Below are positions 55,615-57,612 of a stretch of DNA of 64,000 bases, in pieces. The notes under the pieces were generated by a model, which was given only the letters and a program-made list of their open reading frames with translations, ran no database searches and had not been told where the DNA came from. Position 1 is the stretch's first letter; every line of letters begins with the position of its first letter. A program made the translations under genes and the position numbers. The DNA is from Arenicella chitinivorans (GTDB lineage: Bacteria; Pseudomonadota; Gammaproteobacteria; Arenicellales; Arenicellaceae): contig NZ_BMXA01000001.1 in NCBI RefSeq assembly GCF_014651515.1, positions 124,001-188,000 on the forward strand. Reading direction: 5' to 3'.

Positions 55615-55719
55615 GGAATTATTTGAAGTTTGTAACCTTGCTTCGGCATACTAGCAACTGTTTGTGAAACTACTGACCACATGTCTGGGCGTGAAGCCCT
55701 AAACTTAACTGGAATCTTT

Positions 55720-57612
55720 ATGTTTAATTCTCGACGCTTTACCCGCGCTGCCAGCGCCACTTTGTGTTTAATTACGCTGTCTGTCAGTCCCTTGGTCTGG
55801 GGTTGGGGCGAGCGCGGCCATGATGTGGTTACCCGCGTCGCGGTTCAAAATCTACGTCAAATGGCGGAGGATAATGCGCAGCTGGTGACCCCGTTTTTAG
55901 CACGCGATCATATGCTCGCCCATCTCTCGAATGTGCCCGATATCGTGTGGCGTGCACCGTATATGAGCCAACAGGATCGTGACAGTAATTACAGCACGCA
56001 TTACATCAATCTCGAACGTGTTTACTCCGAAGTTAAAGCCCACACCGACGTGCCTTTCGAGTTAACACAATACCAACAGGATGCACGTTCCAAAGGCCTT
56101 AGCGCCGTGGAAGTCGGTACTGCGCCGTGGCGTGTCTTACAGCTGTATCAGGCCATGGTAGACGCGCTGAGTTCGGTGCCAGACACCGCTGCTGACTCTG
56201 AGTATGAAGCAGCGATCAACGAAGCGTTGCTATACGCGGGACTGATGTCGCACTTCGTTGGTGACCTGGCAAACCCGCACCACACCACGGCGAACTATGA
56301 CGGTCAGTTGAGCGGACAGAAAGGCTTGCATGGCTACTTTGAATCCGATGTGGTCATGTATTTGCCTTTGGGGTTGTCGGCTAAGGTATCCACGCAGGCG
56401 AATCAAATGGCGTTTCAAGACACGTGGTTTCCGGCTCTGAGTGATGAACAGCGTGCGGCTGTACTGCGCGACCCGCAGGCCTTGATCTGGGCGTTGCTGG
56501 CGGACAGCCACTCGTATTTGCCGCAATTGCTTGATTTGGATAAATCCATCTCGCTGGTAAAACCTAGCCGCGATCCAAAGCAGCGAGCAGAGCGTAAATC
56601 CGCCAAAGTTGTGGCACAGGATTTTGAATCCTTTGCTGTCGAGCGTCTGGCATTCGGGTCCTGGGTCCTGGCGCGTTTATGGTGGTTGGCTTGGGATGAA
56701 GCGGGGCAGCCGGATATGACTAAGTATCGTAGTTACCATTATCCCGTGAAGCCGGATTTTGTGGATCCAGATTATTTGCTATCCGACGATGAGAACGCCG
56801 TTACGGATGCTACGTGGCGGGCGCTGGACCTGGATCGTGTTATCGTGATGCAACTACCCAGTGGTCGCGTGGTGATCGAATTGGCGCCACAGTTCGCGCC
56901 GAAGCACGTGGAAAATATTCTGCTGATGACGCGAGAAGGGTATTTCGATGGTACCGCTGTGATTCGCTCGCAGGAGAACTACGTCGCACAATGGGGCGAT
57001 ACGGCTGGCGAGGAATCGGCAGCCAAGTCACTTGGCAGCGCGAAACAAAAAGTGAAAGTCGAATTCTTCGCGGATCCGCAAGCGGTCGGGTTTACACCAG
57101 TTGAGAGCCGGGATTCCTACGCCGACCAAGTTGGGTTTGTGGATGGGTTGCCCACCGCAAGTGATGGTAAGCAGGCTTGGCTTGCGCATTGCTACGGCAT
57201 GGTCGGAGTCTCGCGTGGCATGGGTGATGACTCAGGGAACGGCTCAGGGTTGTATGTGGTGACCGGGCATTCTCCACGGCATTTGGATTTAAATGTGACA
57301 CTGGTTGGCCGTGTACTGGAAGGTATGGAGCATCTCACAACTCTGCCGCGTGGTACGGGTAGTCTGGGTTTTTATGAGGACCCAGCTCAATACGTGCCAA
57401 TTGATTCGGTTAAGGTGGCCAGTGCCTTACCTGAAGGCAGTATCGATATTGCCGTCATGCGTACCGACAGTGCCGCATTTCGTGAGCATGTGGCAGCGCG
57501 CACGACGCGTAAAGAGGACTGGTTTTTACATCCAGCAGGTCGCATTGGCTTGTGTAATATTGCCGTACCGACAAGCTCTAGGGCTGCACTTGAAGGAAAA
57601 GCCGGCGATTGA
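55720..57612 (+). CDS. S1/P1-nuclease-like domain fused to a cyclophilin-type PPIase
   Basis: The 630-residue protein starts with a signal peptide ending near VWG, and the mature N-terminus WGERGHDVV carries the Trp and His that bind zinc in S1/P1 nucleases. Further ligands follow: Asp in SNVPDIVWRAP, His in STHYINL and the block SHFVGDLANPHHTT. From about residue 373 a cyclophilin domain begins (RVIVMQLPSGRVVIELAPQF then HVENILLMTREGYFDGTAVI), ending with VTLVGRVLEGMEHLTTLPRG. A zinc phosphoesterase joined to a peptidyl-prolyl isomerase is not a standard architecture. It is probably periplasmic; whether it cleaves nucleic acid, nucleotides or phospholipid is unknown. Confidence 0.85.
   Translation: MFNSRRFTRAASATLCLITLSVSPLVWGWGERGHDVVTRVAVQNLRQMAEDNAQLVTPFLARDHMLAHLSNVPDIVWRAPYMSQQDRDSNYSTHYINLERVYSEVKAHTDVPFELTQYQQDARSKGLSAVEVGTAPWRVLQLYQAMVDALSSVPDTAADSEYEAAINEALLYAGLMSHFVGDLANPHHTTANYDGQLSGQKGLHGYFESDVVMYLPLGLSAKVSTQANQMAFQDTWFPALSDEQRAAVLRDPQALIWALLADSHSYLPQLLDLDKSISLVKPSRDPKQRAERKSAKVVAQDFESFAVERLAFGSWVLARLWWLAWDEAGQPDMTKYRSYHYPVKPDFVDPDYLLSDDENAVTDATWRALDLDRVIVMQLPSGRVVIELAPQFAPKHVENILLMTREGYFDGTAVIRSQENYVAQWGDTAGEESAAKSLGSAKQKVKVEFFADPQAVGFTPVESRDSYADQVGFVDGLPTASDGKQAWLAHCYGMVGVSRGMGDDSGNGSGLYVVTGHSPRHLDLNVTLVGRVLEGMEHLTTLPRGTGSLGFYEDPAQYVPIDSVKVASALPEGSIDIAVMRTDSAAFREHVAARTTRKEDWFLHPAGRIGLCNIAVPTSSRAALEGKAGD

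Follow-up and report, generated by a model that had tools for sequence, protein, structure and literature searches.

The window analysed here is a 64,000-nucleotide stretch of the 4.03-Mb genome of Arenicella chitinivorans (G000; other genomes of the genus are likewise given G numbers). It contains a plus-strand open frame that joins a zinc phosphoesterase domain to a cyclophilin, with a second in-frame ATG upstream of the assigned start, at 55681. The features are as follows:

55720..57612, + strand: whole fusion gene, 630 codons plus stop; open frame, with an equivalent fusion in G005, G006, and G017
55720..55803, + strand: predicted signal peptide, residues 1-28; hydrophobic leader ahead of a WGERGHD motif invariant in all homologues, with probable cleavage before Trp29
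55804..56778, + strand: zinc phosphoesterase domain, residues 29-353; Pfam PF02265, invariant alignment columns against the ligands of SmNuc1, and fold matches
56779..56814, + strand: linker, residues 354-365; unconserved, with low pLDDT at 339-363
56815..57576, + strand: AquaCyp-type cyclophilin with extensions and insertion, residues 366-619; match to PDB 5ex1 over 359-619 and residue mapping

The original prediction, made from the letters of the DNA, had read this gene as a nuclease and a cyclophilin fused in one frame, and this is borne out by the 630-codon frame, by Pfam matches to both domains, and by equivalent fusions of equal domain order in three further genomes, G006 (87% identity), G005 (67%), and G017 (64%). 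It had also described a single exported chain, an assignment that the hydrophobic leader ahead of the invariant WGERGHD motif makes probable. Relatives carry the two domains as separate adjacent genes, so that a frameshift or an assembly error joining them had to be considered. However, four separate assemblies share the in-frame fusion, all without a second signal peptide and with differing linkers. Therefore, a local frameshift or assembly join is excluded, and we regard the chance of an artefact as negligible. Both domains are strongly constrained while the linker drifts: in the G000-G006 comparison, identity is 90-91% over the domains but 8% over the 12-residue linker, and dN/dS is roughly 0.02-0.03 in both domains, a rough figure because dS is near saturation.

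Cyclophilin and zinc phosphoesterase halves

In the C-terminal half, Pfam places Pro_isomerase over residues 377-566 (E 2.6e-20), and residues 359-619 align with nearly the whole of AquaCyp300 of Hirschia baltica (PDB 5ex1; E 1.1e-33). A Foldseek comparison with the same structure gave an E of 2.4e-17 and a target TM of 0.84, and both the sequence and the fold match cover the extensions and central insertion (the NIC region) of the AquaCyp type. The founding paper (PMC4898713) describes AquaCyps as large cyclophilins with a disulfide-linked NIC domain built from their extensions and insertion. They are reported as foldases, and AquaCyp300 is reported to dimerise through NIC and to have a PPIase activity that is lower and hydrophobic-selective. 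Cys491 and Cys612 of the fusion occupy the positions of the AquaCyp cysteine pair, and both columns are kept in all aligned rows, which predicts a conserved disulfide between the cyclophilin domain and its C-terminal extension.

At the active site, R416, Y421, and Q424 occupy positions 55, 60, and 63 of hCyp18. R55, Q63, and L122 are retained, Tyr stands in place of F60 and F113, and H54, M61, A101, Q111, W121, and H126 are changed. Three of these changes (H54, Q111, and H126) are also found in the weakly active AquaCyp300, from which the fusion differs in having Tyr at the Phe60 position. Since these active-site departures resemble those of AquaCyp300, catalysis by the fused cyclophilin may be weak or selective. 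The original prediction of a cyclophilin-type isomerase thus holds for the Pro_isomerase domain itself, but this is not a plain domain; it is a full AquaCyp with its extensions and an altered active site. It resembles AquaCyp300 in the alignment of the whole C-terminal half, the retained cysteine pair, and comparable active-site departures. In contrast to AquaCyps as described, which are standalone exported proteins, it lacks a signal peptide of its own and is fused behind a phosphoesterase.

The N-terminal half was less easily placed. Pfam S1-P1_nuclease (PF02265) matches residues 29-192 at 29.5 bits, exactly equal to the curated cut-off of 29.5; the G005 and G017 fusions fall below this cut-off, and the G006 fusion and three of three scanned standalone homologues lie above it. 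Zn_dep_PLPC (PF00882) scores 19.3 bits against a cut-off of 26.8, and the scanned homologues are below that cut-off too. A profile search of PDB sequences returned both S1/P1 nucleases and zinc phospholipases C (PLCs) at E of about 0.1. A predicted model of the nuclease domain alone was of low confidence (pLDDT 66), and its credible fold matches were to S1/P1 nucleases and zinc PLCs only (best E 0.002), including tomato TBN1, B. cereus PC-PLC, Listeria PLC, and SmNuc1. Given the threshold score and these mixed matches, we read the domain as an outlier of the S1/P1 nuclease/zinc-PLC superfamily.

Trp29 directly follows the hydrophobic signal segment and starts the WGERGHD motif, which is present in 13 of 13 Arenicella homologues. 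The candidate zinc ligands are W29, H34, D74, H94, H178, D182, H188, H204, and E208, or, in mature numbering, W1, H6, D46, H66, H150, D154, H160, H176, and E180, all kept in an alignment of ten homologues. In SmNuc1, an S1/P1 nuclease of Stenotrophomonas maltophilia with a solved structure (PDB 8qjl/8qjm), the ligands are Trp27, His32, Asp71, His88, His141, Asp145, His151, His175, and Asp179, and the nucleoside site includes Tyr89 and Asn91 (PMC11705217). The nine positions agree in order and spacing and are all metal-binding residues, the last being Glu instead of Asp. The invariant motif after the leader and these nine positions support the proposal, made from the letters, of a zinc phosphoesterase domain whose mature N terminus supplies a Trp ligand. 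SmNuc1 and the fusion also have in common a fold match and the Tyr/Phe and Asn of the nucleoside site, H66-[YF]67-x-N69 corresponding to His88-Tyr89-x-Asn91 (G001 has Gly for N69). Besides the Glu, the fusion differs from SmNuc1 in its larger domain, its Pfam score merely at threshold, a shorter loop between the last His ligands, the lack of a clear match to Lys158/Asn161, and the cyclophilin that it carries.

Glu is typical of the last ligand position in zinc PLCs, and we take its presence in the fusion to be a PLC-like feature. The domain also has in common with B. cereus PC-PLC and Listeria broad-range PLC the superfamily fold and a local match to the H-x3-D-x5-H...H-x3-E core. The zinc domain could accordingly be a phospholipase C-like lipase, with the cyclophilin and NIC regions as a binding module targeting a protein partner or surface; fold and profile matches to PLCs are as good as those to nucleases. 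However, S1-P1 reaches its own curated cut-off where Zn_dep_PLPC does not, and both the spacing from W1 to H6 and the HYxN motif of the nucleoside site resemble those of S1/P1 nucleases. We consider the lipase reading improbable and nuclease activity likely, as judged from these residues. The term nuclease in the original prediction is thus favoured by the S1/P1-like positions and qualified by the threshold Pfam score, the Glu, and a model that matches both enzyme classes alike.

The standalone nuclease of G014 (L039:5430-6515, minus strand) lacks two of the zinc-ligand positions, the second His of PHH being Leu and the His of GLHxYFE being replaced. This suggests decay or a changed function of the protein, in a genome without this cyclophilin.

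Locus states and history of the fusion

Within Arenicella, the locus is found in several states. The genes are fused in four species-level genomes (G000, G005, G006, and G017) and lie in tandem at the shared locus in two, with about 102 bp between stop and start in G011 and 16 bp, containing an AGGAG site, in G012. In G007, G008, and G010 they are parted by an opposite-strand gene assigned by eye as TonB-dependent-receptor-like, of about 900 codons (L030, L031, and L034). The nuclease stands alone at the locus in G002 and G014, and a search of these two genomes for a PPIase of this type found none. Both genes are present on different contigs in G001 and G009, and G004, G015, and G016 have the PPIase only. 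The syntenic surroundings comprise ABC transporter genes and usually a hydrolase downstream, with a glycosyltransferase upstream in most; the G014 locus is without the ABC genes and shares the outer neighbours only. This sample is too small for an argument from how often the two genes occur together within the genus. The unlinked or cyclophilin-free relatives (G001, G009, G002, and G014) indicate that a linked cyclophilin is not required by the nuclease genus-wide.

The standalone nucleases of the genus stop within a few residues of the position where the linker starts, and the standalone PPIases carry their own leader before the WR that opens the shared region. The fusions form one clade in the nuclease tree (99/98). 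In the PPIase tree, the locus-linked copies are a single clade (97/91) separate from the unlinked ones (98/92), and the long-branched G012 copy groups among the fusions; the AU test does not reject a topology that keeps the fusions together (p-AU 0.177). The gene-fusion history is well resolved, and at its simplest it consists of one arrival of a PPIase gene beside the nuclease gene, after which the two were joined in frame once and the second signal peptide was lost. Since the fusions-together tree is not rejected, we prefer a single fusion event, two events or a reversal being possible.

No S1/P1-like frame was found in 75 genome_contigs loci outside the genus that carry this PPIase (L052-L126, 843 kb in total), using a profile that does detect the Arenicella nucleases. 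Across 398 sampled genomes of the phylum, the S1-P1 matches included no other fused protein, with frames of 222-518 amino acids except in G000 (658). In a set of 369 genomes from the class, a nuclease-domain profile at E 1e-8 gave no match beyond Arenicella. The literature search on nuclease-cyclophilin fusions likewise returned nothing relevant. These searches agree with the original statement that no standard family with this order is known, and among the genomes and loci searched only the genus Arenicella has the pairing. It is a new, genus-restricted domain architecture built from two known exported families, not a new kind of system.

Several candidates for further fusions were rejected. 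The 518-residue S1-P1 frame is a 5' read-through, and plasmid hits, among the matches listed, contain the PPIase half only. Long open reading frames beside standalone AquaCyps (L058, L093, L097, L102, L113, and L114) resemble, by eye, GC-rich read-through, with no match to either the nuclease query or its profile.

The nearest phylum-level matches of the nuclease profile come from one family (E 1e-5 to 1e-10). Its members at L143 and L144 are standalone S1/P1-like proteins that also have Glu as last ligand (LHGPFES and THGAFEG), which may point to a broader Glu-type subgroup among S1/P1-like proteins.

Possible role of the fused cyclophilin

We propose, at a probability of about 0.45, that the fusion encodes an exported nuclease-like enzyme on which the AquaCyp acts in cis as a folding, stabilising, or dimerising module. 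Two neighbouring genes, once separate and each coding for an exported protein, would thereby yield one exported protein. Export through Sec and removal of the signal peptide would leave Trp29 exposed, and its amino group would complete a tri-zinc site. The resulting phosphodiesterase would most likely act on nucleic acids or nucleotides. Having lost its own signal peptide, the AquaCyp300-like cyclophilin would travel with the enzyme on a flexible linker and serve it as a folding aid in the periplasm, as a stabiliser, or as a dimeriser through the NIC domain. Of the two roles that the original prediction had offered for the cyclophilin, helping the nuclease fold is plausible, and its release finds no support.

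This cis-acting role is favoured by the occurrence of the fusion in four genomes, the nine invariant ligand positions and retained nucleoside-site residues, the whole-length match to AquaCyp300 with its cysteine pair, the constraint on both domains, the tandem genes, the single clades, and the NIC dimerisation and foldase activity reported in the founding paper. Against it stand a cyclophilin active site unlike hCyp18 at most positions, the absence of the cyclophilin from G002 and G014, the unlinked genes of G001 and G009, and the two ligand positions lost in G014. A more specific version, in which the AquaCyp would be a built-in foldase or dimerisation module of a divergent tri-zinc nuclease, making a genus-specific bifunctional secreted enzyme and an isomerase-client pair fixed by fusion, seems to us doubtful.

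The strongest rival is a joining of little consequence, neutral or weakly useful, in which the two halves would do independent jobs in one compartment, with only their stoichiometry fixed and one signal peptide saved; the lipase with a targeting module is a weaker one. Tandem precursors exist, some genomes of the genus still have the two genes unlinked or have only one of them, and the pairing was not found outside the genus, all of which make such a neutral joining a tentative but real possibility. However, four species retain an intact fusion although their nuclease halves have diverged to as little as 61-65% identity, and the gene order survives the inserted gene in G007, G008, and G010.

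Gene fusions are pointers to working partners. The available portion of the founding paper names no natural client of AquaCyps (PMC4898713), and the fusion and tandem intermediates at one locus name a candidate, an S1/P1-like phosphoesterase. Were the two a dedicated isomerase-client pair, the AquaCyp family would gain a natural client. The comparative set of fused, tandem, interrupted, unlinked, and PPIase-missing states can test whether a periplasmic isomerase is devoted to a single enzyme.

The founding paper describes the AquaCyp family as limited to marine Alphaproteobacteria (PMC4898713). Among loci L052-L126, AquaCyp300-like proteins with the cysteine pair occur in Lysobacter, Massilia and its relatives, Steroidobacteraceae, Acidobacteriota, and an Aminicenantes MAG, a range that extends well past that group.
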